A stretch of 64,000 bases of DNA. Origin: Polytrichum commune (lineage: Eukaryota > Streptophyta > Polytrichopsida > Polytrichales > Polytrichaceae). Shown here piece after piece: positions 1 through 61,139 of this stretch. The stretch covers positions 58,151,169-58,215,168 of the forward strand of contig OX485806.1 of NCBI GenBank assembly GCA_950295325.1, given 5' to 3'. Made by a program: the position numbers and the translations under genes. A model generated the notes under the pieces. That model saw nothing but the letters and a program-made list of their open reading frames with translations. It searched no databases and was not told where the DNA came from. Within the stretch, counting starts at the first letter, position 1; each line of letters opens with the position of its first letter.

Positions 1-3000
1 CAACGTAGGAGTGATAGAATGGAAAAACCCAAGACAGTAACTGATATTCATCAACAATGATGAGCAGGGGCACCAACAAATTGCTGGTTGGCGTTGTGCA
101 CGTATCAATATCGTTGGGGCACATGCATGCATGTAAAAATGTGGACAATGACAATGAGGGCAATTAGTTGTGTGTTCATTAAGGTCCTCACAAGTTGCAT
201 TGTGATTGGTGCCAATCCCACAACATACGCCAACCTCCAACAAGATGAGAAAAACACCATGTTGTGGTCAAAATGCATCCTACAAATGCGCAACAATCAG
301 AATCCAACGAACGCCCTTAACATTTTTTACCTCTATTTGGGCCAAGCATAGACACATGAGCTCCAATTTGATATCATTAGAATTGATTCAAAATATTACA
401 CATGTTGAATAATAAATATATAAATTCTAACAACCTACAAAACAACCTACTTAGAGCTTTAAAAAAAAATGAGGCCCCTTGGAACACTTATGGTATTCTA
501 AGGGTTAGCAAACAATTAATGGACCCATCCAAACCCTTAACCTTTTATTGGCTATTTAGGTTAGGTCTCGTGCCCATTTTTGCTCATTACAAAATCATCC
601 CAACATTGGGCATCTTCTAAATTCAAGGTGTACATACATGTACCACCATTAACATTGAATGTCACAGTTGTTATGAACATTGACATTGAATTTCTATTCA
701 CTTGGCATTCATGTGACCATAACATAATTTTTGGTGTCCAGGATGTTTAGAAAAATAACTTAAGTACATTTTGTACATGGGGGTGGAATTTTTTATTGTT
801 TGGCTTTGAAGCTCATCAGATCTATCACGTGAGTAAAAAAACTAATTTTGAGTTGAGTTTCCTCTTTATCAATTAAACCCTCCCCACCCACCACCCTTAA
901 GACACGCATTGCAGAATGGTCCGATTTGGGGGCGGCCTACCTTAATAGTTGGAAAAACCTTTGTAGAACAATTTTGATCAATAATATATCCCCCAAAATG
1001 TTCCCACCCCAAGCAAACAAATGAGTATATATTTTGTAGCACTAATATGGTCATCATTAATATTAAAAAATGTTGAGTTTTTCACTCAAGATCTTTTTTT
1101 AAAATGGTATTTAATTCATTAACAAGTGTGGACTTAAAAATAACATTTTTAAAGTACGAAACAAATGGGACAATTTTAAAAGATGGAAAATCAACTTGGA
1201 CTTGAGGCTCCGAATCATTGAGCATGTTGGTAACCACTACCCGAGCCTACACTTCAAGTTGTGGAAGGGGGTCATAGGTGTCATGTGGGACGGTATTATG
1301 CAAGCCATTTGCTATTACAAATTATTCCATTCCATTGTCATTTAGTTATGAATTATCATCCAACTTTGTTCTTGACACCTCTGAATCTCCGTCCTCTTCA
1401 GCAACCGGGCATGCATTGGCCATGAAAGCAATTTTCTGCTAAAAAAATTGTTCATCTTCCCCCAAAATGAAGTAGACAGGGGTTGGTTTAATTTAACTCA
1501 AATAAATTACATTCTTTTATTTCCATACATTTTTATAGCCAAAGCAAAAGATTGAGTTTTTCGTAAACCTCTTACCGCAATTTGATCGGTTAAGATTAGC
1601 TACCACATCTCAAAGGAGGTCCCAATAAGTTAGTTTCCTTCCAAAAACCCTTGATTGATGTGAGGCTATTATGTTTGTACAATTTTTTTGCATGTGCTAT
1701 GAATTTGCACATAATGCAGCTGACTCCTTTGATGTTGGTCTTGGAACTTTTGAGCATGCAACTCTAGCCTTCCCAAACCAATGAGGAAACCTTTCTTATC
1801 AAAGTTTCTTCATGTTGATTTTGTTTTCATTATTAATTTTTTTCATAAATAAATAACCAATCTCCCTCTTTTCTATAGCACAATCCCCACGTGTCTCTTA
1901 ATCTAAGTTCATCATCCTTTGGGATGGTACAACAAGCAACATACGTCATCCCGGGAAAAGGTTTCTCCAGTCAACAACTATAGTTTACATGCAATTTCTA
2001 AAACATCTATTTACATTCACGTTAATCCCTTCTACATGAAACACAACTCAAAGCTAGGGTTCCGCATACCATTTCCTACTTGCATGTGCGTCATGCAACA
2101 AAGAATCAATATCATTTTTTTTACCTCCTTCTTTGGGTTATACAAATAATATGGGATAATTCTTATTCTAACCAATATAGATCATCGTTGTGGCCTTATT
2201 CTAACCTTATTGTTTGTCATGCTTCTTTGATTACATTTTTATAGCCTACGAGAAATTTATTGTTCTACCTTCTATAATTTACTTTAGTATTACATTTCTA
2301 TGACTACAAACAATTTAATGCTCCACCGTCAACAAATTTGAGATTTAATTTTGAATAGGAACTATGTACGCTAATATCTTTAAAACAATCTTGTTGTACA
2401 AAAACATGAGTGAAGATGGTCATTTTTGGATTTTGCGTCCAAGATCTTAGAATTATAGGTATTTTTGATACTTAGGTTCAAGCATCCATTGTTGTACGAA
2501 CAAACAATTCCTGCACATCCACTATCCAATTACCTATTTGGCTAATGTCAAGATAAAACTAGATGATGATATTATTCTTCTACTCTTGGATTCCGATGAT
2601 GAGGTTTGTTTAATTATTGATTTTTTTGATACATAATTCTTTCCTTTTACAAATAGAACACCCCTTCAACTAGTGGTTTCTATATAAGTTCATAACATCT
2701 TTCGTGGTTTATTATGCATGAAAATTCTTCCTTATAAATATTCTTCACCCTTTCTTCATATTTTTTAGGCTTAAGCATTGACAATGCATTGAAATTGACA
2801 AAGTTCAAGAGAAGGTCCAAATTTGATCATACCACAATTGATTTTGACAACATAAATGTATGTGACATCAAGTACTTGCCACCTTCTATTCATGGCAATG
2901 TTTTATTTGTATTGCCCCTAGTGTATATGGTTGTTTCTAGTGCGAATGGCCATTCATAATATATGGATAAGATATATGATGGCCACCTTGGTGCACAACA

Positions 3001-3600
3001 AAAACAACATATATCCAAAATAATTTTGGACTAACCTTCATGCGTTTTGTGGGTGTTGGTCATCCCCAATGTATAAGCAAAAATTATGATTATAACTATC
3101 ATAATGGAGGGGTCCCCAACTACACCAAATAAATTGGTTAGATTATTATTCTATCTTTTTTGGGAGATGTTGTTCCAAAAAAAAATCAAGAATGAAATAT
3201 AAGATATATATCTTTCCACACTAGTGTGTATTGCATTGTGCCAATCTGAGATGTCAAAGGCTTATATAAATCTTGGTGTTCATAAATACCTTGTGTTAAA
3301 TAATTAATGTCATGAATCATTTGATATGACTTAGCAATGTATTACCAATGAGGTCATGAAAACATCCATTGCCAATAACTATACTATGGTATTGGCATTG
3401 AGCACAAAATTTGCTGCAGTCTACCTCTTCAAATTTTCATTAAACGATGAAGGATATTATTTGGTAGGTTTGTCTTTGGATGTTGTTATGCATTAATTCA
3501 ATAATTTTTCCATACCAAATTGTTATAACTTTGTATCGAGTTTCAAATGTTTTGTTGTATTGGAATGGGCACAATATATAATATTATGGTGCTCAAAGAC
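1..3600. other. AT-rich spacer, no gene seen
   Basis: Both strands are broken by frequent stops. The longest open frames are under 90 codons and show no recognisable domain. Short G- or C-rich patches near 870-960 are unremarkable. I see no LTR ends, terminal inverted repeats or RNA gene here. Confidence 0.6.
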
Positions 3601-3654
3601 CATTCGTGCTTCATGTACGTCCATGGCAGTAAATTCTCAAGGCATCCAAAGACA

Positions 3655-5290
3655 AAGCATTTGTCTTTAAGATGTCAATAGATCCTCCAAAAGGTGGTGT
3701 GGATTTTATTAACCATATGCATGTTAGAAGAAATATGGAAAATTCATGGATAATGTCTAAAAACGTCAAACGTCTAAAGGATTGGACCACCTTTGCATGC
3801 CATGTGTATGATAGGTAAGTATTGCAAGGTACTAACCATTGAGTATTGTAACATGCAATTTCAAGATGGCATAGCTCAAACTATTGTTTGGAGAAACTTG
3901 AATTATGTATTGGTGGAAAATGAAGTATTGAACATAAATACCAAAGGTTTGATGGCAGAGAATGCGCAAACCAATTGGATTGAGGTAGAAAAAACATGGT
4001 AAATGTGATCTAAGTTTCCCAATGGTGGGTAGCGAGCACCATCATCTTTTTCGTTAGTTGTTAAATTTAGATAATATTATGCAAAAGCATATCAAGGTGC
4101 AATTTCAGCACAAACATCTAGGTAAGGATTACAAGGATGCATTATCAAGTTTTTGAGTGGTTGGGTTTTTGATACTCTTGTTATTGGCAATGGGGTGCTT
4201 ACATGAATATTATAAATGTATCACCATTTTTATTTTGCAATATTATGTGATTTTTTAATCCATAATATATGCAATTTACTATGTGCAATGTTTATAAGAT
4301 ATGACTATAGATGAACATACAAATACGCCAACGTGTAATCTTCTAGAGATGATGCACCACAAGTGGCTCTAACAATCTAGAAACAATATGGTTTGTTTGT
4401 ACGAAAAGACAACAACAATTTGATCCATGCATTCATGCAAATTGAAAATGATAGGTCATGGTTGGGAGGTGGTTTTATTGATAAAGGCCTTGATTCCGCA
4501 TCCTTGAAATTAAAGGTTGCTGCCAAATGTGGAGATTTGAAGCTATAAATAGATGCCATAAAATCCTACCCAAGGGAAAAAACTCTCAATACTAAAGATT
4601 ATAGTTGGGAGGAATATGAGTTGTTTAAAATATACCAAATGGAAGCATAATCTGCCACCAAATGAAAATTATGATTCACATCAATCTAACAAAATGAACT
4701 ATTCAATTATTCCTTCAAATACTAAGCTAAAAAGGCATGTATAAAGGAATCCTTCATTTTTGGAGAGCATGTTGTGGCAAATATTACATAAGTGCTAGAA
4801 TTGATTGTCCTCTTTCTATTGGAATCTTACAAAATTGCCATCCAACTTTGCCAAAAGATGTTGGATGATGCAAGCCAATACCAAGACTTTGTATACTACC
4901 AAAGTTGAAATTGGCAAACATAGCATCGTTGATATTACCTACAAAAGATTAGGAAGGAGTATCGCTTCACCAACAATGTGGAGTGTGAATTTTGGTTATG
5001 TCCTCACATTAAGCGTTGTATAAATAATAGCAAGAAAAAATATGCATTGGATTTGCATGTAATATCTAACATATGGCTAGTAAAAATAGGTACCAAAATC
5101 TCAAGGTATGAGGTGTTGACGCTCAACGATATTGGGTTCCAATTGCGGTCATGGAGGTTATTTTTCCTCGACAAAGATTTTTTACAATTGCAACACTTCC
5201 AATACCTTGGACATATTTTTGTGCCTAGATGCCCATCGAATTTTAGAAAAGTAATGTGTCGTAATCCAACATCACCAATGGTGTGAGCCT
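3655..5290 (+). pseudogene. decayed reading frame of unknown, possibly transposase-like family
   Basis: A chain of plus-strand reading-frame pieces (about 3660-4002, 4380-4550, 4805-5023 and 4978-5286) reads as one eroded protein with several stops and frame changes. Seen directly: pieces such as LTIEYCNMQFQDGIAQ, KGLMAENAQTNW and, further on, IWLVKIGTKISRYEV. The spacing of acidic residues and the 'conserved block, then FMADxAQxNW-like block' pattern recalls a DDE-type transposase core or a repeat-associated plant protein family of unknown function. This is recall-level resemblance only. No start codon, intron or terminal repeat could be fixed. It could equally be a decayed host gene. Confidence 0.3.
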
Positions 5291-12438: not shown

Positions 12439-13410
12439 TGTCGCAACCCTTGCTAGCCCCCTTGACCATCTTGCCAATTTTCATTCCTAGCAAAGGTTAC
12501 AAATGCTAACCCTTCGCATTCCGCCATGCTAATGGTTAGCTCCTCCTACCCCAGACCTATAGTTCATAGGAGGGAACCAACCCTCCTACTTTGCTTTCGG
12601 GACTCACCCCTTAATCGGTAACCCATTTCCCCAATGCGGACTTCCATTCATGGAAGTCCAATCCCATGTTGATCATCGCGTTGCCGAAGCAACACTACAA
12701 CAACCCGAAGCATACTAGGCAACTATGGCCTCACATTGGGCCAATGCCCATGGAGGCCGTGCCGTTCGGCCTCGGGTGGGTGAGGCCACACCACCTCACC
12801 CATATAAGCCTCTAGGACTCTACGCGGGGCCCCTACCCTACCGTCAACCAACCTCTTGTCTCTCCACCAAGAGTTGGGGCCAAGTAGACATTTTCCCTTA
12901 GCTGCTGGGCCTAGAAGCCCCTAGCAGCTTCAGACCATCATAACTTCCTTGTATGATGTCTGGTGCTAATACGCGACCACTCCATCTTCATCTACGCTTC
13001 ACGTAGATGCCGATGGACTCCTCACTTGCCCCATTCAAGCAAGTATGGAGGAAGTTATGCTTGTTTGAACCTTGGCAGTCCCGGGAACCACTCCCAGGCA
13101 CTGTTGTACCAGGGCGCTGTCCCGGGACAGCGCCACACTCAAATGGCCATAACTCCTAGCTCACACCTCCGATTGAGGTGTTCTTGAGCATTCTAGAATC
13201 ACCACGCCATGAGCTACGCATAGCTCATGGCCTCACCCTCATGCCTCCTAGTCTCCGTGGGTGGGAGGCGTTCCCAATGCCCGGGGCCCTCACCCACACT
13301 AGGATCACTTGGGCCCTCTCACCAACGGCGCCACAAGTCCCGGGTGTCATTCCGGGGTCCCCCTTGTGCCCATGGTGTTTCGGGCAATCCTCATGGAGAG
13401 GTGCGCGACA
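12439..13410 (-). mobile_element. family-A solo LTR with 5-bp TSD
   Basis: This 972-bp LTR begins TGTCGCAACCC and ends GGTGCGCGACA as read on the plus strand, so its termini form the TGTCGC/GCGACA inverted repeat. It is flanked by a perfect 5-bp target duplication TGCAA (12,434-12,438 and 13,411-13,415). No internal sequence is attached, so it is a solo LTR left by LTR-LTR recombination. Coding orientation of the family, taken from the full elements at 53-64 kb, makes the sense strand minus. Open frames inside it (for example 13,178-13,498) recur in every copy and are not genes. Confidence 0.93.
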
Positions 13411-23873: not shown

Positions 23874-24744
23874 TTAAATATGATTGGTGGAAGCACTAAG
23901 TACCGAAAATCCTTGACAGCGAGGACAACTCCCCGGTCCAAATGGTATAGAAGTCAAGGGTGGCCTCAAGCATGCCATGTGCCAACCACGTTGACACTGA
24001 TCACACAAAAGCATAGTAGCCGCTACTTTCTTATTTCCAAACACAAAACATGGAAGACCCTCTGGCACGATGGCTAGTTCATGATGAATTGTACCCTCAA
24101 TGGGTAGATGACATGGGGCACAGTTTTTGGAATGCTCGCGACATTCCCTGCCATCATTGCCTTCCAACAACAACAAACCACTTGGCAACACCTCCTTCAC
24201 CCGAAGGATAGTGTGCCCCGCCTTGATATCCAATGTTGTAGGCGCCTCACATTGGAGATAAACATAATCCCTTTGCCGGAATCTCTGCAACTGAGGTCGG
24301 TAAGCACCACTGCGAATGCGTGCATAACGCAATGTGTCACGGTGCTGAGAAATGGACAAATTCTCCATGGCCATAGGCATGGCCCTCTGGAAGAATTGAG
24401 CCCGCTCCTACAAACACTCTGCCCAAATGTTTGGGTCATCCAAGTCCACAACAAAAGCTAACTTTTCCCGAATAGAACTTGGGAGAATATGCTCACGTCC
24501 ATACAATAACTGATACGGGTTGTAGGATGCCAAAGAGGCATGCCTACTAAATCGATAGCCCATAGCAATCCAAGGCAACATAAGATCCCAATCCCGGTGG
24601 CTTCCCCGAAGTAATCCATACTTCCTCAAGCCACATTTGGTTGTCTGAACAACCCGTTCAGCCAAGCCATCTGCCTCCGGATGATCTCGAGAGGTGGTGC
24701 GGTGATCTATGAGCACCTTAGTGCACAACTCCTCAAAAGTTTTC
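23874..24744 (-). pseudogene. integrase C-terminal half with PHD finger (copy 1)
   Basis: Gypsy integrase joins reverse-transcribed DNA to host DNA. Visible here is only the part after the first two catalytic acids: IDHRTTSRDHPEADGLAERV contains the HP-x-DG-x-x-E region with the third catalytic acid. The usual GYRFSRHAS...YNPYQLLYGR tail follows, then an SH3-like strand region. An in-frame TAG near 24,408 (probably former CAG) divides two otherwise continuous pieces. The C-terminus carries a PHD zinc finger: CAPC, then after a loop of about 37 residues LLCDQCQRGWHMACLRPPL and SCPRCQG, giving the C4HC3 ligand set. PHD fingers bind histone H3 tails, so this could steer integration where other gypsy elements use a chromodomain. 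The 5' side is cut at about 24,745 by a family-A LTR. Confidence 0.85.
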
Positions 24745-25680
24745 CTTGCAACCCTTGCTAGTTTTCCTTCACTTAGCTTGACCGCCTTTCCAACCTAGCA
24801 AGTGCCACGAGCGCTAACCTGCACATCCCACGCACATGCATGGTTAGCTCCCAAAACCGCGGACCTTCGAGCTCATGGCTAGGTCACCAAACCCTCCTAC
24901 ACATGCATTCGGGACTCTCCCCTTCGTAGGTAGCCAATGGCTAAGGTGGACTTCCATCCATGGAAGTCCACTCTTGAGTTGATCATCGTGTTGCCAAAAC
25001 AACACTACAACTACCCGGAGCACATTGCCAAGTATCCTCCGGGGGGGTCGGTCGGCTAAGCCGCCTCACCCATATAAGCCTCTAGGACTTTAGGCGGGGC
25101 CCCTACCCCACCATCAAGTATCCTTTTGTCTCTCTACAAGGGTTGGGGCCAAGTGGACATTTTCCCTTAGCCGCTGGGGCTGGAACCCCCCAGCAGCTTC
25201 AGACCACCATAACTTCTACATATGATGTCTGATGCTCTCAAGCGACCACTCTATCGTCACCTAATCTTTGCGTAGATGCCGATGGACCCCTCACTTGCCT
25301 CATTCAGGCAAGTATTGAGGAAGTTATGGCTCTTCAAACCTTGGCAGTCCCGGGCACCACTCCCAGGTCACTGCTGTCACAGGGTGTTGTCCCGGGACAG
25401 CGCCCCACTCAAATGGCCATATCTCCTAGCTAGCACCTCCGATCGAGGTGTTCCTTAGCATTCTAGAATTCCACCACCATAAGCTACTCATAACTTATGG
25501 CCTTACCCTCATGACTCTTAGTCCCCGTGGGTGAGAGGCGTTCTCAACGCCCGGGGCCCTCACCCATGCTATGAGTACTTGGGCCCTCTCACCAATGGCG
25601 CCACAAGTCCTGGGTGTCACTGCGGGGTCCCCCTTGTGCCCATGGTGTTGCGGGCACTCCTCATGGAGAGGTGCGCGACA
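24745..25680 (-). mobile_element. family-A LTR at the left border of the 8-kb block
   Basis: The plus strand runs from TTGCAACCCTTGC (the first bases of the usual TGTCGCAACC are altered or lost) to GGTGCGCGACA. Left flank is integrase coding sequence; right flank (ATCGC) is the truncated last exon of the ParB-methylase gene. The two flanks do not repeat each other, so this is not a simple solo LTR. It marks a recombination or deletion junction, or one end of a rearranged element. It is inverted relative to the LTR at 31,701-32,673. Confidence 0.85.
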
Positions 25681-25855
25681 ATCGCCATATCATGGGCATA
25701 GATAGGCAAAGTGAAACCCATGGTGGGAGTACCAAACACATCCGCTCCAACGCCAAGTCTGAAAAAAACCACAAGAATTGTAAGAAAGAGTATGAAAAGT
25801 GTAAAATTTGAATGGACAAGGAAAATAAGCGAAGAAGGTCATCATACTCACTTAC

Positions 25856-27388
25856 TGCGAGGGCTTTGGCCTCGATTGCTTCAAGGCCGGCGGCCTCTTC
25901 TGCGTGCCTTGTGAAGCCTGCGTGGAAGCAACAACTATGGATGGAACCTTCACCGTAGGCTTAACACTCTTAAGAGGCTTAAGGACTCGGTTGAAGGTGT
26001 CCTCATCCTCCTCAAGAGCAACGATATGGCGCCCAAGCTGCCTGCATGCATGGATAGAAGTCCCTGTTGCGGAGGAAATGGTAGCAAAGGGAAAAAAAAA
26101 AACTTAGAAATTGAAAACTAGAATATGTTGGGAAGTGAATTAGGACATACCAACGCCTGCATTAACGTCCACCACAACCTGTCCAATGTCCGTAGTGGCC
26201 ATGATCAAGGAGGACATGAAATAAATATCTTTCTCCCGGGGACCCCGCCAAGCTTTCGAGCCGTCCATGAGAGGAGTTGCGGTATAATTCATAATGGCAT
26301 CATCCATGTCGAGCTCAATGCCAAGAGCCTTGAGCTCATTGGCATCGCAAAGGCAAAATGACGAGTGCCGGGGCCGCTTATCAAGGTCGGATCCAATTGT
26401 TTTCGTGGCACGAACAAGTAGTACAACTTGGAAGAGGTTGGTGGTCTTGTCCTTATGCTTAGCTGAATGTAGGCGAAGACGGTTGATTCCCAGCCACTCC
26501 TTGAAGATGGTGAACCCAAAAGCAGCGAAATGGTCCTCAATGCTCTCCCTGAAGTCACCATTGTCATCTGGATGAAAGAGGAGGAGAGCTCCATCGTCAT
26601 GCAGGATCTCGTCCGCAAAATCGAAGAGTTCACCAATAAAATCGGGATTTAATGCATTCCAGGAAAGTACACTATAGGAGGGATCGGAGACATTGGGCAC
26701 GGGCAGGTTCTCAGGGATGTCAGCAATGACAAGATCAGCCATGCCCACATCTGACCTCGTGACGCCTAGAGCTCTCTTAGGATGGGAGGGTGGAAGAAAA
26801 AGAATGAACTCCGAAACCTCCTGAAAATGACGACGTTGATGGAGAATGGAGGCATTCAAGATGCATTCTAAAACAACAGGAGGACGCCTAGCAGATGAAA
26901 GAACGGGCGGTGGAGGCGGCCTGGACAGAGTAGGTACTTGACTAAGAGTTGCAGTGGATGCAACAGCCGCCTCAGGTGAAGCAGGAGGATCATCCTCCAC
27001 AGTCTTGAGCTTCCTCGCGCGCTTTTTCAGTGAAGACTCGTCTTGAGTCGCACGCTTCCTCCTCTTGGACTTCTGAGTGTTGGCCTCATCGACAGTCGCA
27101 ACAACCTCGTCCGCCTTCGGAAGCTGACTGTCGAGGAGAACAACCTCATCGCTTTGAAAAGGAGGCTCTCCACCGGAGAGCCGAATCTTCAAGGCCGCCT
27201 CCTCATCCGGTTGCCACGTCCTCTTACATTCCAAGTACCAGCAACACTTGCGGAGATGCGGGAGGGAGAAGTAGTACTTTTGAAGCGGGGAAAAAACGAA
27301 GGTGGGCGAAGAGGAATCTGACCATGCGTCTAGAAATGGAGGGAGCTTCTTCAAATCCTTCTTCTTGAATAGCTCATGTTTGATGTAC
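25856..27388 (-). CDS. permuted amino-type DNA methyltransferase exons (beta-class motif order)
   Basis: Exons 27388-26151 and 26063-25856 encode, in order: a basic bipartite segment (KSKRRKRATQ...KKRARK, a likely nuclear localisation signal), a proline-rich linker, motif IV-like DLVIADIPENLP, a strand-helix region with ILHDDGALLLFHP, and then WRGPREKDIYFMSSLI leading into motif I. Motif I spans the splice junction: VVVDVNAGVG plus TSIHACRQLGRHIVALEED. That is the SAM-binding D-x-x-AGxGTS signature normally reading DPFAGSGTT. The catalytic motif is DIPE rather than DPPY/NPPY, so the aromatic residue that stacks on the flipped base is absent and activity is doubtful or altered. Motif IV before motif I is the order of beta-class N6-adenine/N4-cytosine DNA methylases. 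Phase at both junctions is maintained. Confidence 0.78.
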
Positions 27389-28139
27389 CTTCACAACCAA
27401 GTGAGGCCAATCAGCAACTTAGAAAACACATGGGTTGATATGAATGAAGAAAACAATAGATGTGTTAACTAACGTACCGAAAAATTAATCGCTTGACAAT
27501 GTTGTCACCGCCTTTGACATCCTTCCACCACGTCCCTTTGCCGTATATATTTGACCTTGAAAAGTGACCAAAGAACGCCTTATCCCATAGACAGATTCGC
27601 CACTTCTCCAAGTACTCCGGCAATGAATCAACTTCCACGTCTCCGTCAAGCCCAACCAATGCATTTAGTATATCGGGTATCTCCTTGACCGCGGCCTCCT
27701 CTAGCTATGGATAAATTCAATGCCAAGATAAGAATTGGCACAAAATGAAGAGTTGAAAGGTAAAGAAGGATAAGGAATATAAACGTACCCCCGCCCAGAA
27801 CGCTGCTTTATTGAGCCAAGGTTTCAAGGTGTCCTTGCTTGCTGGACTTTTGGGAAACCGGATAGCTTCACGATTGAAACTTCCACTATTCCACCACTTT
27901 AGCCAACGGACTTTATAATCTGGCTCCATAGCAGCTGTGGCAATGAGTTGCAATTTCTCCAATGTCATCTCAATCTTCTGAGAATGGTGGGCGCTATAAT
28001 GCCTAGTAATCTGAAACAAATGCAATCAACATAGAAGGCGAATTAAATTTAAGAATATATACCGAGAAAATGCTGCACAATATGCGAGCAATACGGAAGG
28101 TATAATTCCGAGGGTGAAAACACAGAAATTACCTCATCT

Positions 28140-29100
28140 TGGAACATCAGACCTTTTAATCAACGCCGTCCACCTAGAAATCCAGCAATTGAAACCTTTC
28201 ACCCTCTTCTCATCAGATCATAAACCACCACTAACTAACTTAGGTGGACCTCAGGGCCTCTCTCCCTACTACCTATAGAGCATACAACCACATATTACAC
28301 ATTCAGGCCCTCACATCAGACCTCTATTCAGACCTCCCTAGCCAAGCCGAACAGTCATAAACCACCATTAACTATCCTAGTTGGCCCTCAGATTACTCGA
28401 TTCCCCGAGCACCCAGAAAATAAAAATAAAAATAAAAACCTTTTTGAGGTTCTGAAGGAGGCACCCAAAGGGTCTGTCGGATCCGACAGACCATTAGGCC
28501 CCCCCCCACCAGACCTCGCAAGCATCCACCTATGGATTTTATATCCACCAATCTAACCTTACCCCCCTCTATTCAGACCTATGACGATCTTACCTCTAGA
28601 GCATACAACCAAATATTAATCATTCACACCCTCACATCAGACCCCTCAAGCTACTACATTTCCAGCATACTAACAAAAATTAAACCTTACAGCCCTCATT
28701 TCAGACCACTCAAGCTACTACCATTCCAGCATATTAGCAAAAATTAAACCTCACAGCCCTCATTTCAGACCACTCAAGCTACTACCATTCCAACATATTA
28801 GCAAAAATCAAACCTCTCAGCCCTCATTTCAGACCACTCAAGCTATTACCATTCCAGCATATTATCAAAAATTAAGCCTCACAGCCCTCATTTCAGACCA
28901 TTAGGGCCCTCACATCAGACCTCTATTCAGACCTCACTAGCCAAGCCGAAAAACCATAAACCACCACTAACTAGCCTAGTTGGCCCTTAGTTACTCAATT
29001 CCATGTGCACCTAGAAATCCAACAATTGAAACGTTTCACCCCCCTCTCATCAGACCCTCAAACAAAACATTTCAGCCATAAAACACCACTAACTAACCTA
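28140..29100. repeat. intron repeat related to the sequence upstream of the gene
   Basis: Blocks such as CCTCACATCAGACCTCTATT, GGTCTGTCGGATCCGACAG and GACCTCGCAAGCATCCACCT recur at 30,570-31,090, beyond the 5' end of the gene. The same low-complexity, C-rich repeat family has therefore invaded or been copied between the intron and the upstream region. Confidence 0.85.
28626..28900. repeat. 64-bp tandem array in an intron of the ParB-methylase gene
   Basis: Units contain CAGCCCTCATTTCAGACCAC and CATATTAGCAAAAATTAAAC. They begin at 28,690, 28,754, 28,818 and 28,882 (64-bp steps), with a more diverged unit before them. They lie in the intron between the exons ending at 29,227 and starting at 28,010. 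Confidence 0.92.
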
Positions 29101-29777
29101 GTTGGACCTTAGTTTACACGATTCCCTGAGCACCCAGATCTCAGAAATTAAAAAAAAAAAACATATGTGAGCTTCTGTGGGATGCACCCAATGGTCTATC
29201 GGATACGGCAGACCAAGAGAAATTACCTCCTCTAGGAACTGTTTTCCGAGGGCCGGGTTTGCGATCGATTGTTGCTTATTAAACTTGTGCCCAAGTTCCT
29301 CAGTCATCTTCTTTATCACAACGTCCAATACTTCACCCAACCCGTTCCCTGACTGCTCCTCAAGAGGCATTTCCTCTTTGTAGATTTGGGCTGCCTCATC
29401 TACCGCATTGGCTATCTCTTGCTGAACATGTATGCTCAATTGTTAGATCATGACTAAGAGTAATGAATGCGAATTAGAAGGTTGAGGAATTTGGAGTGAC
29501 TTACATTGAATATGAAGGACACCATAAGATCATGGGTCAGCGGGTACCAAGGGCTCTTAGGGCCTCTGCTCTTGCATGCTTGGAATTGCGACTCGGTCAA
29601 TAATGGTTGGTAGTAGCTAAGATCATACTAACCGTATTTTTGAATGCGGTGTAGAGTGTGTACGAGGCTAGTTTTAACGTGCACGGTCTGGTTAGCCCTG
29701 TTGCGGTTGAGAAAAATGCCATTAGATACCAATCATAAAATGAAAGAAACTAAGATTTGAAAAAATATAATACTTAC

Positions 29778-30566
29778 TTGTTGATGTCATGCATTGCGTT
29801 AAGGACATCCCCACGCCCACCCGTTGTGTCGAGGACGACACATTCTGGGCAACCATGCTTCTCGTACCAGAGTGCATCATCCTTGTGCTCTGATTCGATA
29901 CACTCTTTCCATGCAAACAAACGATGATTACCATCATAGATAAAGAACATACATCCACTGAGGCTCATCAAGTCCTTATCCGCGCGCAAAAAAGATTCAA
30001 ACTTATCATTTTCTGCACCCCATAGCTCTCCCCATTCACGCCTGTCTTTCGCCGAAATGAATCGATTATCTCCAGACTCATTTGTAGTAGATACATACAA
30101 AGTGGAAGATCCAGCTTGGTATCCAAATTGAAATGCCGCCATGAGCTTTGTAACGTCGTTGCGGAGGGTTGGGCGAACCAATGGCATGTGAATCAACCTG
30201 CAGAGGGGGATTCTCATGAAGGACTTTTCCACCGGTTGTATCCTCATGCCCTCAACAACTAAGAAGCTATCTTTATTTAAATTGTGGCGAATCCAATACT
30301 CCATTGCATGAACACCCACATCCGACTCTGCAGGGGATTTGCAAAGGGGCTTCCCAGGTGTCTCGGGTTCGCTACTACCGGGTGTAAGCCCAGTAGTTTC
30401 AGCACATGACAACGGAGACACTTGCTCCTTATGCTCCTCAATACTAAGGGATGACCCACCGCCAATGCGAACCCGAACATCCAATGACTCTCCATCCTCA
30501 ACCATCTCAACGATCTCCTGACAAGAAATTTCTTGCACACATGAGAAGCAATCAAGTGAACAAAGG
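29778..30566 (-). CDS. ParB/sulfiredoxin-like domain exon of the ParB-methylase gene
   Basis: About 260 residues in one frame. An acidic, serine-rich N-terminal part is followed by MRIPLCRLIHMPLVRP, a run like the opening strand and helix of ParB/Srx domains. About 80 residues later comes MFFIYDGNHRLFAWKECI, the GxHR nucleotide-binding signature (DGNHR) of the fold. ParB proteins bind CTP; Srx-like relatives bind ATP or act as nucleases. In phages the same domain is often fused to DNA methylases. No ATG is in frame before the codons for MVEDGES, so translation may start there or in a lost upstream exon. The donor AACAA|GTAAGT joins in phase to the exon at 29,697. Confidence 0.75.
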
Positions 30567-31096
30567 CTGCATCAGACCTCGCAAGCATTCACCTATGGAT
30601 TTTATATCCAGAAATCTAACCTTACCCCCCTCTACCTAAAGAGCTAACAACCACATATTAGACATTGAGGCCCTCACATCAGACCTCTAAACAGACCTCC
30701 CTAGCCAAGCCGAACAGCCATAAACCACCACTAACTATCCTAGTTGGCCGTCAGCTTACTCGATTCCCCGAGCAACCAGAAAGAGAAAATTAAAAAATAA
30801 AACCTTTTTGAGGTTCTGAGGGAGGCACCAAAAGGGTCTGTCGGATCCGACACACCATTAGGCCACCCCACCAGACCTCGCAAGCATCCACCTATGGATA
30901 TTAAATCCACCAATCTAACATTAGCCCCCTCTATTCAGATCCCTCTCACTCCTACCTATAGAGCATAATACCACATATTACACATTCAGGCCCTCACATC
31001 AGACCTCTAAACAGACCTCCCTAGCCAAGCCAAACAGCCATAAACCACCACTAACTAACCTATGTTGCCCTCAGCTTAGTCGATTCCCTGAGCAAC

Positions 31097-31136
<40 letters not shown>

Positions 31137-31138: not shown

Positions 31139-32673
31139 GATAAAACCAAGAAACTTCTTAGTTGTGGGCTTGTCCGGGCGGGGACAAGGTGATGGCGCGT
31201 GCTCATAAAAGTGCTACCCGCGAGCTAACGAGAGTTGGTGCATGGGAATCATGAACCCATGTCTCGAAAGAGCAAAGTGAGAACCGAGTCGGGCGGGACT
31301 TGGCATCACCCCCGTGCGATCGAGGCGTGGCTTAACAATGGAAAGCCATCTCGGAGTTGCAACCGAGATAACTTAGTGGAAGCGTTGAGGTCTCGCCTAG
31401 ATGTGTCATGTTAGGCTAGTGGAGCCTAACGGGGGGAGGCCCCAAAGGAGGGGCAACCCAAGTGAGTCCCAAAGTAGGTGGGTCTAGTGTAGGTTAGGTC
31501 CTTGGAGGAGAGATCCCAGGTCGCTAACGGACCACCTAGGAATGACACCTTTGGGACTATGCCAAATTTGAAGATGCATTGTGGGGGTCGCGCCCTAAGG
31601 TAAACACAATGCCGCACCATAGAGGATGACAACTTGAGAATTGGTGTGCCGACTACGAGTATAGTCGATGAGGGCATCGACTCTGTTTGGTGGGGGTGAG
31701 TGTCGCGCACCTCTCCATGAGGAGTGCCCGAAACACCATGGGCACAAGGGGGACCCCGGAGTGACACCCGGGACTTGTGGCGCCGTTGGTGAGAGGGCCC
31801 AAGTGATCCTAGTGTGGGTGAGGGCCCCGGGCGTTGGGAACGCCTCCCACCCACGGAGACTAGGAGGCATGAGGGTAAGGCCATGAGCTTTGCGTAGCTC
31901 ATGGCGTGGTGATTCTAGAATGCTCAAGAACACCTCGAGCGGAGGTGTGAGCTAGGAGTTATGGCCATTTGAGTGGGGCGCTGTCCCGGGACAGCGCCCT
32001 GCTACAGCAGTGCCTGGGAGTGATTCCCGGGACTGCCAAGGTTCAAACAAGAATAACTTCCTCAAGACTTGCCCGAATGGAGCAAGTGAGGAGTCCATCG
32101 GCATCTACGTGAAGCGTAGATAAAGATGGAGTGGTCGCTTGTTTGTATCAGACATGATACAAGGAAGTTATGATGGTCTGAAGCTGCTGGGGGCTTCTAG
32201 GCCCAGCGGCTAAAGGAAAGTGTCCACTTGGCCCCAACTCTTGGTGGAGAGACAAGAGGTTGGTTGACGGTGGGGTAGGGGCCCCGCGTAAAGTCCTAGA
32301 GGCTTATATGGGTGAGGTGGTGTGGCCTCACCCACCCGAGGCCGAACGGCAAGGCCTCCATGGGCATTGGCCCATTGTGAGGCCATAGTTGCCTAGTATG
32401 GTTCGGGTTGTTGTAGTGTTGCTCCGGCAATGCGATGATCAACATGGGATTGGACTTCCATGGATGGAAGTTCACATCTAGGAATGGGTTACCGATTAAG
32501 GGGTGAGTCCCGAAAGCAAAGTAGGAGGGTTGGTTCCCTCCTATGAACTATAAGGTCCGGGGTAGGAGGAGCTAATCATTAGCATGGCGGAATGCGAATG
32601 GTTAGCACTCGTAACCTTTGCTAGAATTGGAAATTGGCAAGATTGTCAAGGGGGGCTAGCAAGGGTTGCGACA
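31139..32673 (+). mobile_element. 3' end of a truncated family-A element: internal tail, polypurine tract and 3' LTR
   Basis: 31,139-31,700 is the reverse complement of 53,803-54,360, the 3' internal end of the full family-A elements. It ends in the purine run GGTGGGGGTGAG, directly followed by an LTR of 973 bp (31,701 TGTCGCGCAC to 32,673 TTGCGACA). The element is plus-sense and its 5' part is missing. The right flank GCAAT interrupts the reverse transcriptase/RNase H reading frame of copy 1 within AVWAIA. No matching GCAAT was found on the other side of the block. Confidence 0.9.
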
Positions 32674-34000
32674 GCAATAGCCCATACCGCTGCCAATGCT
32701 TCTCCTTCGTAGGACGAATAATTAGCCTCCGTCGTGTTATTGCTTCGCAAAGCGTAAGCAACAACATACTCCTGGCCGAAATCATCCTTCCGAGTGAGAA
32801 CTGCTCCCAAACCCAATGAACTCCAATCCGTATGCAACTGGAAGGATTTGGAGACATCCGGACGTCGAAGCACTGGAGCAGCACCCAGTTTCTGCTTCAA
32901 TGTCTCAAATGCCTGTTGTTGCTCACGACCCCAAGTCCAAGGTTGGTCCTTGCTTGTGAAAATGGTGTGAGGCTTGGCGATCAAGCTAAAGTTCTTGACG
33001 AACCGACGATAGTTATTCTCCAAGCCCAAGAAAGCAAGAAGTCTCGGCACATTGACCGGTGCTGGTATCTTTTGCAAGGCGTCCACCTTAGCTTGTTGCA
33101 CCCCAAGACCTCCTGGAATAATAATATGACCTAGATATGGAAGTCGGTCATGGAAAAACTTGCACTTGCCATGGTGCAAGCGCAATCCCCACCGCCGCAA
33201 TCGCTCAAAAACGGCTTGAAGATGCTTTACATGCTCCTGTGGTGTTTTGCTGAAAATGATCACGTCATCAATGTAACACCGAGCAAAAGGCAGGCCAGAG
33301 AGAACTTGGTCCATCACTCTCTGAACTCAGTAGGCGCATTCTTGAGGCCAAATGGAAGAAACTTCCAATGGTATAGTTGATCCTTCCCATCATGATCAAC
33401 TCCCCAAAATGCGGTTTTCACCCGATCTCCCGTAAGTAATGGAAGTTGGTGATATCCGGATCTCAAGTCCAAAGTGCTAAAGACCCGAGAAAATCCGATG
33501 GCATTGAACAACTCCTCCAGGATCGGCATGGGATACCGATCCGACTTGGTCTTCCGATTAATTGGACGGTAATTCCCACACATATGCTTCTCCGTCCAAT
33601 TGCCAAAGATGTCCTTCTTTGATGGCATAACCGTAGCACAGGCATACTCCCCGTTGGAAAGTTCGATTAACCTTGCTGCCAAGAGCTTTCGGCAACGAGC
33701 CTGAGCGCCAATCCGCTCGGAAATACAGAGCCTATAAGGTCTCAAAAAAATGGGATGGTCGTCCTCCAACTGAATGTGGATGGGTTTTCCTTTATATCCT
33801 TCAAGATCATGAAGGCTAAAAGCAAAACATTTACGGTACGAGCAAATAAATGCTCGTACCTTCCGTGCCTCAGCACCAGTGAAAGCTGTGTAAAAATGTT
33901 GAGCTCGAAGCTCCTCCATCACATGCTGCTCGAATTGAAAAATTTGTTCGGCTTCTCCAATCATGGCGTGAATTCCCTCCTCCATGGGTGTGGACCGATG
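32674..34000 (-). pseudogene. reverse transcriptase of copy 1 (truncated in RNase H)
   Basis: Ty3/gypsy reverse transcriptase copies element RNA into DNA. Seen in order: a linker with YRKCFAFSLHDLEGYKG, the fingers region (GEYACATVMPSKKD, MCGNYRPINRKT), FSTLDLRSGYHQL, FGLKNAPTEF, and the catalytic YIDD in FARCYIDDVIIFSKT. The connection and the start of RNase H follow (FQLHTDWSSLGLGAVL, ANYSSYEGEALAAVWAIA). A one-base loss near 33,315 shifts frame between NAPTEF and MDQVLSGLP. The right side is interrupted by the solo LTR at 34,001. The left side is cut by the LTR ending at 32,673, so most of RNase H is absent. Confidence 0.92.
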
Positions 34001-34946
34001 TGTCGCAGCCCTTGCTAGCCCCCCTTGACAATCTTGCCAATTTTCAATTTTAGCAAAGGTTACGAGCGCTAACCATTCGCATTCCGCCAAGCTAATAATT
34101 AGCTCCTCCTACCCCGGATCTTATAGTTCATAGGAGGGAACCAACCCTCCTACTTTGCTTTCGGGACTCACCCCTTAATTGGTAACCCATTCCTAGATGT
34201 GGACTTCCATCCATGGAAGTCCAATCCCATGTTGATCATCGCTTTGCCGGAGCAACACTACAACAACCCGAACCATACTAAGCAACTATGGCCTCACAAT
34301 GGGCCAATGCCCATGGAGGCCTTGCCGTTCAGCCTCGGGTGGGTGAGGCCACACCACCTCACCCATATAAGCCTCTAGGACTTCACGCGGGGTCCCTACC
34401 CCACCGTCAACCAACCTCTTGTCTCTCGACCAAGAGTTGGGGCCAAGTGGACATTTTCCTTTAGCTACTGGGCCTAGAAGCCCCCAGCAGCTTCAGACCA
34501 TCATAACTTCCTTGTATGGTATCTAATCATAACAACCAACCACTTCATCCTCATCTACGCTTCACGTAGATGCCGATGGACTCCTCACTTGCCCCATTTG
34601 AGCAAGTCTTGAGGAAGTTATGCCTATTTGAACCTTGGCAGTCCCGGGAATCACACCCAGGCACTGATGTACCAGGGCGCTGTCCCGGTACAGCGCCCCA
34701 CTCAACGATTGAGATGTTCTTGAGCTTTCTAGAATCACCACGCCATGAGCTACGCATAACTTATGGCCTTACCCTTGTGCCTCATAATCTTCGTGGATGG
34801 GAGGCGTTCCCAACACCCGGGACCCTCACCCACACTAAGATCACTTGGGCCCTCTCACCAACAGAGCCACAAGTCCCGGGTGTCACTCCAGGGTCCCCCT
34901 TATGCCCATGGTGTTTTGGTTACTCCTCATGGAGAGGTGCGCGACA
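34001..34946 (-). mobile_element. family-A solo LTR with TSD CGATG, between methyltransferase and reverse transcriptase
   Basis: Starts TGTCGCAGCCC, ends GTGCGCGACA, about 946 bp. The perfect 5-bp flanks are CGATG (33,996-34,000 and 34,947-34,951). Removing the LTR and one CGATG restores continuous polyprotein coding from the end of the methyltransferase domain into the reverse transcriptase linker, which proves it entered after the element. Confidence 0.94.
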
Positions 34947-34951
34947 CGATG

Positions 34952-36395
34952 TGTCCCCTGACCAGAGTCCTCTACCCCCAGAAACAACTATTGGTCACCA
35001 CGATGCCTTTGCAATGAAAGGCATAAAGCAACAATCCACACCATGGTATGAAGATCCATGGCTTGGCCCAACACGAAGCGTCGTTGACCCTCAGAAAGGT
35101 CGGGAGCTGCGGTGGTGCCAATGCGGAATCCCATGGCACGCTCTTGCTCGTCAGCCAATGGTTGGGTGTTGTTTTCGGTGTGAGCATCCTACACCATACC
35201 CGCCCCTAATTGCGGAAAGCGAATGACTGTGGAAATGTCATAAACGTGGGAAAAGCCCGCCGTGGTGCCCTCACTTTGTTGACCAATGCCAACCGGGGCA
35301 AATCATCTCGAACAACCGGCAAAGAAATTCAGTTCGGATCCAAGATGTCATCCACCTTTTGATCTAAAGGTGGAGGCACTACAGAAAATGCTGTAGCTAA
35401 AGTAGATGACGGTGTGAGGTTGGTCCAAATCCATCAAGGCCTGTGGGCATAAGAACCAATGCTCGCGGCATCCACAAAAATGGGATCTCCAAGGTGTTGA
35501 CGAACATAATGATCACCTTCCAACACCTTGTCCCAAGAGTCTCCCAACAAAGGTACATTATCAAAAATATACACTGGAAGGGAAGGTTGGTGGGAAAACC
35601 ACCACTGCATGAGGCGGATGAGGTCCCAAAATAAACTGGACTTGGGATCCTCTAGACCTTGGCCCGCTCTAGCACGTGAATGGCCCTGGCATGGCCATCC
35701 CACAATCACCATATCCACTGGACCCAAGTGTCGTAAGTCGGCGTCACGAAAGAGACGTGAAAAACATCCACGAATGGCAGTCGGGTGTAACTGCTGTGGA
35801 TACATCACCATCAACTGGTGAAAATGATGACGAGCCACACGGGTGGACACTTGAGAGTTGTCCACATAGACATACCGCTTGACCGTAAGGCCAGCCTCCA
35901 ATACGGCTGCTAATCCTGCGCCAATGCCCCCAAACAGCTCCACCAAAGTAATCCCAGTGTCTGGAGGGCGCCACAAAATGGGGCGTGCCAATGTGGATAG
36001 ACTATCCGATATGACTGGTGTGGTAGAACTGAGAGAGAGGACAATGTCCTCACACCGTTGGAACAGGCTGGAGGAATCACGCCACGGAGGTAGAGGGTCC
36101 TTAGGATAGCGTACCAAGGAATGCCTAGGTGCCATCTCTGGTGGGTCTTCAACATCCCCCATGAATGCCAATGACTCCTCCAATAATGCGGATCCATAAG
36201 GCAATGTATATAGCACTGCATCCAAAAACCATGGATAATGGTTCGATGGTGGCGGGCGCTGCAAAGGCCACATGAATAAGTTCCCTACGGCCGTCTCCAG
36301 CTGACCAACCTGATCAGATCCAAGCCTCTTCAGTCCAGTTGTCCAAACCAAAGCCAAGGGGGTAAAGTGTTTGCTGACCAACTAAAATGTCATAG
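34952..36395 (-). pseudogene. C5 cytosine DNA methyltransferase domain inside the gypsy polyprotein (copy 1)
   Basis: C5 methyltransferases transfer a methyl group from SAM to cytosine C5. The frame at 36,381-35,434 (315 residues) has motif I at residues 146-156 (LVELFGGIGAG), then VYVDNS, then motif IV at 228-235 with the catalytic Cys231 (GWPCQGHS). Motif VI is FDNV where FENV is usual, and motif VIII starts VDAASIGSYAHRP. The frame then meets TGA (probably former CGA: AHRPR) and another TGA after DDILDPN. Beyond these stops the remainder continues to the TRD and motif IX/X-like segment (LGQAMDLHTMVW) near 35,060. It lies between protease and reverse transcriptase, in phase with the protease tail. 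Motif composition fits DNMT3/DRM-like eukaryotic enzymes better than bacterial ones, but subclass needs a tree. Confidence 0.9.
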
Positions 36396-52700: not shown

Positions 52701-52830
52701 ACACATCCAAGGGAGAATTTTATTCCTCATCTTCAAAAACTCCTAAGTCCTCCCTGCCTACCTCTATTCTGCCTAACTAATCTAGTTGCCCTTCTAAGCT
52801 AAGAAGAGCGGTGCTTCTTCTGAGCTGATC

Positions 52831-53802
52831 TGTCGCAACCCTTGCTAACCCCCTTAGCAATCTTGCCAATTTTCAATTCTAGCAAAGGTTACGAGCGCTA
52901 ACCATTCGCATTCCGCCATGCTAATGGTTAGCTCCTCCTACCCCGGACCTTATAGTTCATAGGAAGGAACCAACCCTCCTACTTTGCTTTAGGGACTCAC
53001 CCCTTAATCGGTAACCCATTCCTAGATGTGGACTTCCATCCATGGAAGTCCAATCCTATGTTGATCATCGCGTTGCCGGAGCAACACTACAACAACCCGA
53101 ACCATACTAGGCAACTATGGCCTCACATTGGGCCAATGCCCATGGAGGCCGTGCCGTTCGGCCTCGGGTGGGTGAGGCCACACCACCTCACCCATATAAG
53201 CCTCTAGGACTTCACGCGGGGCCCCTACCCCACCGTCAACCAACCTCTTGTCTCTCTACCAAGAGTTGGGGCCAAGTGGACATTTTGCCTTAGCTGCTGG
53301 GCCTAGAACCCCCCCAGCAGCTTCAGACCATCATAACTTCCTTGTATCATGTCTGATCATAACAACCAACCACTCCATCCTCATCTACGCTTCACGTAGA
53401 TGAAGATGGACTCCTCACTTGCCCCATTCGGGCAAGTCTTGAGGAAGTTATGCCTGTTTGAACCCTGGCAGTCCCGGGAATCACTCCCAGGCACTGCTGT
53501 ACCAGGCGCTGTCCCGGGACAGCGCCCCACTCAAATGGCCATAACTCCTAGCTCACACCTCCGATTGAGGTGTTCTTGAGCATTCTAGAATCACCACGCC
53601 ATGAGCTACGCATAGCTCATGGCCTTACCCTTGTGCCTCCTAGTCTCCGTGGGTGGGAGGCGTTCCCAACGCCCGGGGCCCTCACCCACACTAGGATCAC
53701 TTGGGCCCTCTCACCAATGGCGCCACAAGTCCCGGGTGTCACTCCGGGGTCCCCCTTGTGCCCATGGTGTTTCGGGCACTCCTCATGGAGAGGTGCGCGA
53801 CA
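52831..53802 (-). mobile_element. family-A 3' LTR of left tandem element
   Basis: 972 bp, TGTCGCAACCC to GTGCGCGACA on the plus strand. The adjacent internal side (53,803-53,815, CTCACCCCCACCA) is the complement of a polypurine tract, so on the minus strand this is the 3' LTR. Contains CACCCATATAAGCC. Confidence 0.95.
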
Positions 53803-54599
53803 CTCACCCCCACCAAACGGAGTCGATGCCCTCATCGACTATACTCGTAGTCGGCACACCAATTCTCAAGTTTCCATCCTCTATGGTGCGGCATTGTGTT
53901 TACCTTAGGGCGCGACCCCCACAATGCATCTTCAAATTTGGCATAGTCCCAAAGGTGTCGTTCCTAGGTGTTCCGTTAGCGACCTTGGAACTCCTCCAAG
54001 GACCTAACCTATACTAGACCCACCTACTTTGGGACTCACTTGGGTTGCCCCTCCTTTGGGGCCTCCCCCGTTAGGCTCCACTAGCCTAACATGACACATC
54101 TAGGCGAGACCTCAACGCTTCCACTAAGTTGTCTCGGTTGCAACTCCGAGATGGCTTTCCATTGTTAAGCCACGCCTCGATCGCACGGGGGTGATGCCAA
54201 GTCCCGCCCGACTCGGTTCCCACTTTGTTCTTTCGAGACATGGGTTCATGACTCCCATGCGCCAACTCTCGTTAGCTCGCAGGTAGCACTTTTATGAGCA
54301 CGCGCCATCACCTTGTCCCCGCCCGGACAAGCCCACGGCTAAGAAGTTTCTTGGTTTTATCCAAGGCCCTTCCAAGCCATGGCCCCCAATTACTCGGCTT
54401 ACCCAACCTAGTTTGGCATGTCTATTCCCCCTCTTCCATTAACCAAGCACAAGTACAAGACTAGGACCTCATCTCATACTTTTCTCTTTGCACCACTAAA
54501 GTTTGGACTTTATTCCCTCAAGCCAAAGAACAAGTTCATGTTGTGGAGCAATTAGCCTCGAAGGTAAGTGTGCTACTAACGTCTCTCCCCCACTAAAGG

Positions 54600-59067: not shown

Positions 59068-60040
59068 TGTCGCAACCCTTGCTAGGTCCCTTAATAATCT
59101 TGCCAATTTTCGTTTCTAGCAAAGGTTACGAGCGCTAACCATTCGCATTCCGCCATGCTAATGGATAGCTCCTCTTACCCCGGACCAATAGTTCATAGGA
59201 GGGAACCAACCCTCCTACTTTGCTTTCGGGACTCACCCCTTAATCGGTAACCCATTTCCCCAATGTGGACTTCCATCCATGGAAGTCCAATCCTATGTTG
59301 ATCATCGCGTTGCCGGAGCAACACTACAACAACCCGAACCATACTAGGCAACTATGGCCTCACATTGGGCCAATGCCCATGGAGGCCGTGCCGTTCGGCC
59401 TCGGGTGGGTGAGGCCACACCACCTCACCCATATAAGCCTCTAGGACTTCACGCGGGGCCCCTACCCCACCGTCAACCAACCTCTTGTCTCTCTACCAAG
59501 AGTTGGGGCCAAGTGGACATTTTCCTTTAGCTGCTGGGCCTAGAACCCCCCCAGCAGCTTCAGACCATCATAACTTCCTTGTATGATGTCTGATCATAAC
59601 AACCAACCACTCCATGTTCATCTACGCTTCACGTAGATGCCAATGGACTCCTCACTTGCTCCATTTGAGCAAGTCTTGAGGAAGTTATGCCTGTTTGAAC
59701 CTTGGCAGTCCCGGGAATCACTCCCAGGCACTGCTGTAGCAGGGCGCTGTCCCGGGACAGCGCCCCACTCAAATGGCCATAACTCCTAGCTCACACCTCC
59801 GATTGAGGTGTTCTTGAGCTTCCTAGAATCACCACGCCATGAGCTACGCATAGCTCATGGCCTTACCCTTGTGCCTCCTAGTCTCCGTGGGTGGGAGGCG
59901 TTCCCAACGCCCGGGGCCCTCACCCACACTAGGATCACTTGGGCCCTCTCACCAACGGAGCCACAAGTCCCGGGTGTCACTCCGGGGTCCCCCTTGTGCC
60001 CATGGTGTTTCGGGCACTCCTCATGGAGAGGTGCGCGACA
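59068..60040 (-). mobile_element. family-A LTR shared by the two tandem elements
   Basis: 973 bp, TGTCGCAACCC to GTGCGCGACA. It has a polypurine-tract complement on its right (60,041-60,053, CTCACCCCCACCA), making it the 3' LTR of the right element. On its left is leader sequence (minus: TGGTGAGCCCGGGG, a possible primer-binding site 4 bases from the LTR), making it also the 5' LTR of the left element. Confidence 0.95.
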
Positions 60041-61139
60041 CTCACCCCCACCATACGGAGTCGATGCCCTCATCGACTATACTCGTAGTCGGCACACCAA
60101 TTCTCAAGTTGCCATCCTCTATGGTGCGGCATTGTGTTTACCTTAGGGCGCGACCCCCACAATGCATCTTCAAATTTGGCATAGTCCCAAAGGTGTCGTT
60201 CCTAGGTGGTCCGTTAGCGACCTTGGATCTCTCCTCCAAGGACCTAACCTATACTGGACCCACCTACTTTGGGACTCACTTGGGTTGCCCCTCCTTTAGG
60301 GCCTCCCCCGTTAGGCTCCACTAGCCTAACATGACACATCTAGGCGAGACCTCAACGCTTCCACTAAGTTGTCTCGGTTGCAACTCCGAGATGGCTTTCC
60401 ATTGTTAAGCCACGCCTCGATCGCACGGGGGTGATGCCAAGTCCCGCCCGACTCGGTTCTCACTTTGCTCTTTCGAGACATGGGTTCATGATTCCCATGC
60501 ACCAACTCTCGTTAGCTCGCAGGTAGCACTTTTATGAGCACGCGCCATCACCTTGTCCCCGCCCGGACAAGCCCACAACTAAGATGTTTCTTGGTTTTAT
60601 CCAAGGCCCCTCCAAGCCATGGCCCCAATTACTCGGCTTACCCAACCTAGTTTGGCATGTCTATTCCCCCTCTTCCATTAACCAAGCACAAGTACAAGAC
60701 TAGGACCTCATCTCATACTTTTCTCTTTGCACCACTAAAGTTTGGATTTTATTCCCTCAAGCCAAAGAACAAGTGCATGTTGTGGAGCAATTAACCTCAA
60801 AGCTATGTTTGCTACTAGAGTCTCTCCCCCACTAAAGGAGATTGATGTCCTCATCAATGCCTACGCTTCTTTTTATTGGAATGTCTAGCCTTAGTTTCTT
60901 CAAAGTGCTTCACCAATTCATTGGTGTTGACCATGTCTCTTGCCGCCACCCAAGCGGTTTCTTTCTCATGGTATCCTCACCATTTCACCAAGTATTCCTT
61001 TGTACTTTTTCTTTCCTTTTCATTTGGGCTTCCTACACTTGAGGATGCCCTCTTACCTCATGTTCCAAATGACGTCCACAAGGCCGGAAGGTGGCCTAAT
61101 CACTTGCTTGTGATCGGGCCACAAGGTGTCGTCCTAAAA

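Follow-up and report, generated by a model that had tools for sequence, protein, structure and literature searches.

The 64,000-nucleotide stretch of the Polytrichum commune genome analysed here (contig OX485806.1; hereafter the window) carries at 25681-30505, on the minus strand, a gene of eight exons in whose product a ParB/Srx-like domain is followed by a helical middle part and then by a permuted N4/N6-type DNA methyltransferase (MTase) domain. This window gene is a decayed, defective copy of the accessory gene of a large transposon which is present in many copies and moves by transposition, generating 10-bp target duplications. From the organization of the element we infer, as a somewhat probable reading, that the ParB-MTase protein is an accessory protein of a Mutator-like element (MULE) which binds the element's own palindromes and thereby keeps off silencing or regulates expression.

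The eight in-frame minus-strand exons proposed in a first-pass annotation are confirmed by both splice sites and reading frame: AG precedes exons 2-8, GT follows exons 1-7 and all joins are in frame. Exon 1 (29778-30505, from the first ATG) includes the ParB/Srx-like domain with the motif DGNHR at 29921-29935. It is followed by exons 2 (29505-29697), 3 (29227-29421), 4 (27789-28010) and 5 (27478-27704). Exon 6 (26151-27388) encodes the linker and the first half of the MTase domain, with DIPEN (motif IV) at 26707-26721, WRGPREK at 26230-26250 and the start of motif I at 26151-26169, while exon 7 (25856-26063) supplies the remainder of motif I, rebuilt across the splice junction, and the C-terminal part of the domain. 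All four motifs highlighted in the annotation were thus located. Exon 8 (25681-25758) completes a joined sequence of 1050 codons up to the terminal stop, with one internal stop.

Two features had escaped the annotation. The internal stop is an in-frame TAG at 29628-29630 in exon 2, because of which the window copy must be considered broken. In addition, a repeat resembling a long terminal repeat (LTR; 25061-25680, minus strand) truncates the 3' end of the gene by cutting exon 8 at 25681, which is therefore not a natural gene end. The possibility that exon 8 is not real was dropped since eight of nine other copies compared retain its frame at identical length (copy L024, which has lost the acceptor, is the exception); it comprises 92 codons in all seven other copies measured and is under weaker constraint (dN/dS 0.34-0.94). 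The full protein would have about 1096 residues. The surviving part of the transposon copy (25681-31119, minus strand; 96% identity to copy L010) is bordered by LTR-retroelement-like sequences. Inverted repeats considered as ends of the gene's own element were rejected, since they proved to be LTR-like and to recur elsewhere in the window. Other genomic copies have the same exons and keep the GT/AG sites with few exceptions, their introns having diverged, and in two proteins, P0003 and P0004, encoded on short contigs from JGI and ENA, translation runs through an intron at the position of the exon 6/7 junction, with the same coding blocks on either side.

A profile search of the spliced product, suggested as a check, gave a match just below threshold for the MTase part and a very weak one for the ParB part. 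The joined product of exons 1-7, with X in place of the internal stop, matches PF01555 in Pfam with an E value of 3.7e-5 and 24.2 bits, below the cut-off of 26.7. This match spans the exon 6/7 junction, and neither exon 1 nor exon 6 alone gave a Pfam match. In a homologue from the moss Ceratodon purpureus, the PF01555 match is nearly full length and scores 30.4 against the same cut-off. For the ParB part, Pfam yielded no ParB family for any of eight members at E <= 5 and NCBIfam no match, and PHROG 1033 (ParB-like) matched weakly (E 0.55) over the DGNHR stretch. The ParB/Srx alpha+beta fold was obtained in 13 of 13 cases among the matches listed, and in eight aligned members the G, N, H and R of DGNHR, which we take to be the conserved basic ParB motif (DGxHR / GERR type), are invariant, with D present in seven. 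The predicted structure of the moss protein (confidence score, pLDDT, 41.5) was left out of the fold searches. Weak top matches in a viral structure library include ParB-like names, none of them significant. In sequence searches of the PDB neither the window exons nor the ParB alignment retrieved anything relevant, and the moss protein gave a marginal match to an adenine methyltransferase (E 0.053). The annotated architecture, a ParB/Srx-like domain and a permuted MTase with plant-type introns, is supported.

Catalytic motif IV of N6/N4 methylases has the form [DNS]PP[YFW], in which the aromatic residue stacks the target base. Here it reads DIPE or DLPE, instead of DPPY, in the main family and in copies L028, L031 and L032, hence in the four subfamilies read, which upholds the suggestion of a catalytically altered enzyme; it is DTPF in the moss homologue and NIAE in P0003. 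Since motif IV departs from the canonical form, we do not claim activity as a methylase. Because its base-handling aromatic residue is replaced by a conserved glutamate, we expect the domain to bind S-adenosylmethionine (SAM) or to contact DNA, and not to methylate in the ordinary way; features of a cofactor site are retained. An active writer, which would place N6-methyladenine or N4-methylcytosine on element DNA to mark or shield it, seems unlikely to us: the PF01555 domain is present, most copies read keep the proline of motif IV and a glycine-containing motif I, and the moss protein retains the aromatic residue, but DIPE/DLPE replaces that residue in the main family, L028, L031 and L032, and motif I is without its usual F.

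The gene belongs to a multicopy family. In a search of the 407.8-Mb assembly (64 contigs, seven of them large), in which the best 100 of 1733 candidates were scored, exon 6 matches at least 108 places. At least 44 of these cover all 416 residues of the query open reading frame (ORF), the window at 100% and 43 others at 88-94% identity, and 36 of the 44 are without a stop. Copies occur on all seven large contigs, together with a few diverged matches at 31-37%. We compared 10 kb around 20 copies, 19 from the main family and one diverged (L028). Among the 19, exons 1-7 are complete and free of stops in nine, carry stops or shifted frames in seven and are partly missing in three. Nine copies (L009, L011 and L013-L019) align with L012 along 5.6-6.6 kb at 99.4-99.7% identity, and L020 matches it in two shorter pieces (99.7 and 99.2%). 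The near-identity of the nine copies to L012 points to recent movement, and the synonymous divergence (dS) between L012 and L016 is 0.0015. More distant subfamilies were also recovered, whose protein pieces share 42-59% (L028), 40-57% (L033), 30-68% (L032) and 24-38% (L031) identity with the L012 protein.

The ParB-MTase gene is under purifying selection, with a ratio of nonsynonymous to synonymous divergence (dN/dS) of about 0.2. Values are 0.21-0.23 for L012 against L010, the window copy, L023 and L025 (the last two with one stop each) and 0.29-0.35 in three other pairs, while three near-identical pairs give uninformative ratios (0.39-3.2). The value of 0.59 for the window copy against its nearest relative, L010, is as expected for a decaying copy. 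A chance origin of the gene model is excluded by the 44 places spanning all of exon 6 and by the ratios of 0.21-0.23, obtained from comparisons of groups that are some 90% alike.

Purifying selection and plant introns would also suit a host gene domesticated from a mobile element, one of the options first raised, and the few diverged copies (31-37%) lie outside the evidence against it. That reading is nonetheless exceedingly improbable, given that similar copies number in the dozens, with about ten near-identical and three shown to have target duplications. For the window copy itself domestication is refuted by the multicopy state, the target duplications, the stop and the truncation.

The alternative option, a transposon-borne gene, is supported by both the multicopy family and the target duplications. 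A sharp right end, CGCATACTAACTTTCCCC, beyond which the flanks differ, was seen in all 11 copies inspected for it. It is present in the stretches analysed of 12 of the 19 main-family copies, including L024, and a version with two changes occurs in L028, whose subfamily is 44% identical; it was not found in the stretches of L010, L021-L023, L025-L027, the window copy or L031-L033. One copy, L012, was read contiguously and the size of the element rests on it: 17,848 bp between two copies of TGGTACAGTG. In all three copies with both ends seen, the element is flanked by 10-bp duplications, TGGTACAGTG (L012), AGGTCCAAGG and GTTTGGTAGT; the 4 kb examined in a fourth copy did not reach its left end. 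Joining the L012 flanks restores an open frame in another transposase-like gene with a weak SWIM match. This interrupted gene, located at L030:4767-5258 with its continuation past the L012 element, resembles a transposase with a SWIM-like finger.

Within the L012 element a transposase-like gene is transcribed leftwards and the ParB-MTase gene rightwards, with a tandem array between them. The former includes a 762-residue ORF (element positions 2105-4393), presumably a Mutator-like transposase to judge from its motifs, which had no Pfam match at E 10 and no transposase family. Further exons, the last with a stretch resembling a zinc finger (weak SWIM, E 0.11), apparently continue it. The element ends form imperfect inverted repeats, matching at 15 of 23 positions. 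A 10-bp duplication fits MULEs, for which a range of 8-11 bp is given (PMC6446971).

The array of L012 consists of 171-bp tandem units, usually with one palindrome, TGTCGGATCCGACA, per unit. The element includes 23 exact copies of TGTCGGATCCGACA, 19 in the array and four nearer the gene, against 0.0007 expected from base composition. All 23 are at least 5.5 kb from either end, and four lie within 1.2 kb of the ParB-MTase start codon. Per 10-kb stretch, the 19 main-family copies contain from 0 (L020) to 13 exact copies. In the window TGTCGGATCCGACA occurs in intron 3 (28475-28488), a site also found in L021 and L022, and upstream of exon 1 (30839-30852); these are the only TCGGnnCCGA sites in the 64 kb. 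In 61 units from 15 copies the palindrome is 98.5% identical and its flank 92.5%, although the units were picked by words beside the palindrome, a choice which favours well-kept ones.

Arrays are unrelated between subfamilies, and three of the four subfamilies bear lineage-specific palindromes sharing the core TCGGnnCCGA. The L028/L033 subfamily has two different arrays, of 107-bp and 322-bp units, both with GGTGGTCGGGTCCGACCACC or close variants, and that of L032 has 85-bp units, with GGTTTCGGnnCCGAAACC six times. A second palindrome, TTGAAGCCnnGGCTTCAA, unrelated to the TCGGnnCCGA core, also occurs six times in the 85-bp arrays of L032 (C7:4761298-4771297). The core is found 12 times per 10 kb in L012, 10 in L027, 14 in L028, 12 in L033 and 9 in L032, whereas block shuffles of L012, L028 and L032 give a mean of about 0.1 and at most 2. 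L031, from a further subfamily, had no such core in the stretch counted. The palindromes TGTCGGATCCGACA, GGTGGTCGGGTCCGACCACC and GGTTTCGGGACCGAAACC may be binding sites for the ParB-MTase protein.

On this basis we propose that the protein, probably as a dimer, would recognize TCGGnnCCGA palindromes both in the array and elsewhere in the element's non-coding DNA. The two-fold symmetry of these sites would suit a dimer such as ParB. Once bound, the protein would most likely protect element DNA from host silencing or regulate element expression, with the MTase-like domain serving as a SAM-binding or DNA-contacting module. We favour self-recognition with an anti-silencing or expression role because the layout strikingly resembles the VANC system (PMC5735166).

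The arrays might instead hold sites for the transposase or for host factors, the role of the ParB-MTase protein being unrelated to them. Transposases commonly bind repeated sites, which favours this reading; yet the distance of all 23 L012 sites from the element ends, the four sites close to the ParB-MTase start codon and the site in intron 3 of the window copy, L021 and L022 make this rather improbable. Less probable still, and in our view quite remote, is a nuclease or nickase helper, in which the ParB-like domain would cut or nick DNA while the transposon excises or replicates. Nicking activity is reported for Bce_0392, a ParB-methylase from a bacterium (PMC5512222), but it is described as nonspecific, whereas the element has arrays of a specific site far from its ends. 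A bolder form of the proposed self-recognition role, which we regard as possible but doubtful, is that a plant transposon family has adopted a bacterial ParB-methylase together with its logic: a ParB-type clamp would load on, and perhaps spread from, parS-like TCGGnnCCGA arrays whose flanks change between subfamilies, and with a SAM-binding MTase module of altered catalysis would let the element recognize itself and escape silencing, by a system for which no eukaryotic counterpart is known.

Relatives of the protein are present in public databases. The moss homologue, the Ceratodon purpureus protein M758_1G295400 (1147 residues, hypothetical), is 32% identical over 88% (E 1.3e-114) and emerged from a search in which the best 7986 word-sharing candidates were scored. 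P0003 and P0004 share 76% and 61% identity over 49% of the query; they emerged from a second protein search, in which the moss protein did not reappear. More distant relatives occur in Adiantum ferns, both hypothetical proteins: L7F22_001330 (A. nelumboides, P0002), which matches over the ParB region and a weak motif-I region (PF01555 E 0.011), and GOP47_0030188, homologous over the ParB region. By eye, L7F22_001330 begins with the C-terminus of a Ty3-type integrase, followed by ParB-like and motif-I-like regions, and this apparent integrase start suggests that in ferns a retroelement may have captured a member of the family. The statement that no described land-plant gene of this architecture was known must be qualified: a limited literature search found no published account, but hypothetical proteins from moss and Adiantum are on record in databases. 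Neither PMC6446971 nor PMC13317346 uses the term 'ParB' in its main text.

An origin in the ParB-methylases of phages or bacteria is plausible, although the queries used revealed no close relative in phages, plasmids or prokaryotes. When viral and prokaryotic contigs were scanned with the family alignment (two peptide patterns each), no relative emerged, and tblastn of exon 1 against phages and plasmids gave nothing of note. The moss protein matches phage methylases weakly (264 records, best E 7e-5 among 20 matches listed); the two loci inspected encode annotated lone methylases, with no ParB part on the same gene.

Several other features lie near the gene. Upstream is a 973-bp LTR-like repeat (31701-32673, plus strand, the orientation being arbitrary), with further copies in both orientations at 12439-13410, 25061-25680, 34001-34947, 52830-54200 and 59068-60440; part of it also occurs inside transposon copies L009 and L011-L019, between array and gene. 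An ORF at 35434-36381 (minus strand) has the start of a C5-cytosine methyltransferase (PF00145, E 8.3e-8, motif GWPCQGHS), and near it, on the same strand, are pieces of a Ty3-type reverse transcriptase (32646-34108). Together they are possibly a retroelement carrying a DNA methyltransferase (DNMT), comparable to elements reported in a dinoflagellate and a charophyte (PMC5890265). A PHD finger (PF00628, E 5.3e-7) at 23874-24407 (minus strand) ends a retroelement-like ORF, adjoined at 24408-24794 by an ORF which is integrase-like by eye, with no relevant Pfam match.

The VANC type represents the known anti-silencing proteins of plant transposons. If our proposal is correct, the ParB-MTase protein would be a second such protein, unrelated to VANC and made of bacterial-type ParB and methyltransferase domains, and would imply that elements repeatedly invent self-recognizing proteins which evolve with arrays of their own sites. 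It would also add to eukaryotes a ParB-type protein for which a specific site can be suggested, and a methyltransferase-like fold that has been conserved despite replacement of its catalytic motif. Mobile elements could have here a novel means of controlling or escaping their hosts. With palindrome arrays at hand, and copies that are intact and moved recently, the proposal is open to direct tests of binding, methylome and expression.

VANC proteins of Arabidopsis VANDAL elements are described as binding short motifs and causing loss of DNA methylation there; the motifs, which have accumulated through tandem repeats, are located within introns and upstream, and their evolution goes along with that of the protein (PMC5735166). 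The two systems thus share an accessory gene in a Mutator-type element and a subfamily-specific short motif in repeats, introns and upstream regions. They differ in that the protein domains here are unrelated and the motif palindromic, and that hypomethylation is known for VANC and would be a predicted effect here. The likeness is one of how the systems would work: Pfam scans of the family returned PF01555 and others at chance level and, within Pfam, no homology to VANC. VANDALs are also described as MULEs without terminal inverted repeats (PMC13317346), while the present element has short imperfect inverted ends. With MULEs in general (PMC6446971) it shares 10-bp target duplications and a transposase-like gene with a weak SWIM match; it differs in its ends (15/23), its large size, a transposase without a Pfam MULE match and its ParB-MTase cargo.

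Mobile elements with a DNA methyltransferase gene are also represented by the DNMT-carrying retrotransposons of Symbiodinium and Klebsormidium (PMC5890265). Theirs are C5-cytosine enzymes, in contrast to the ParB-fused amino-methyltransferase-like protein of a DNA transposon found here. M758_1G295400 is homologous over both domains and differs in motif IV (DTPF instead of DIPE/DLPE), whereas L7F22_001330 shares the ParB region and a weak motif I and is set apart by its apparent integrase C-terminus. Bacterial and phage ParB-methylases such as Bacillus cereus Bce_0392 similarly combine a ParB/Srx-type domain with an amino-methyltransferase (PMC5512222); the family described here is distinguished from them by introns, a long helical middle, the DIPE/DLPE form of motif IV and its residence in a plant DNA transposon with palindrome arrays.

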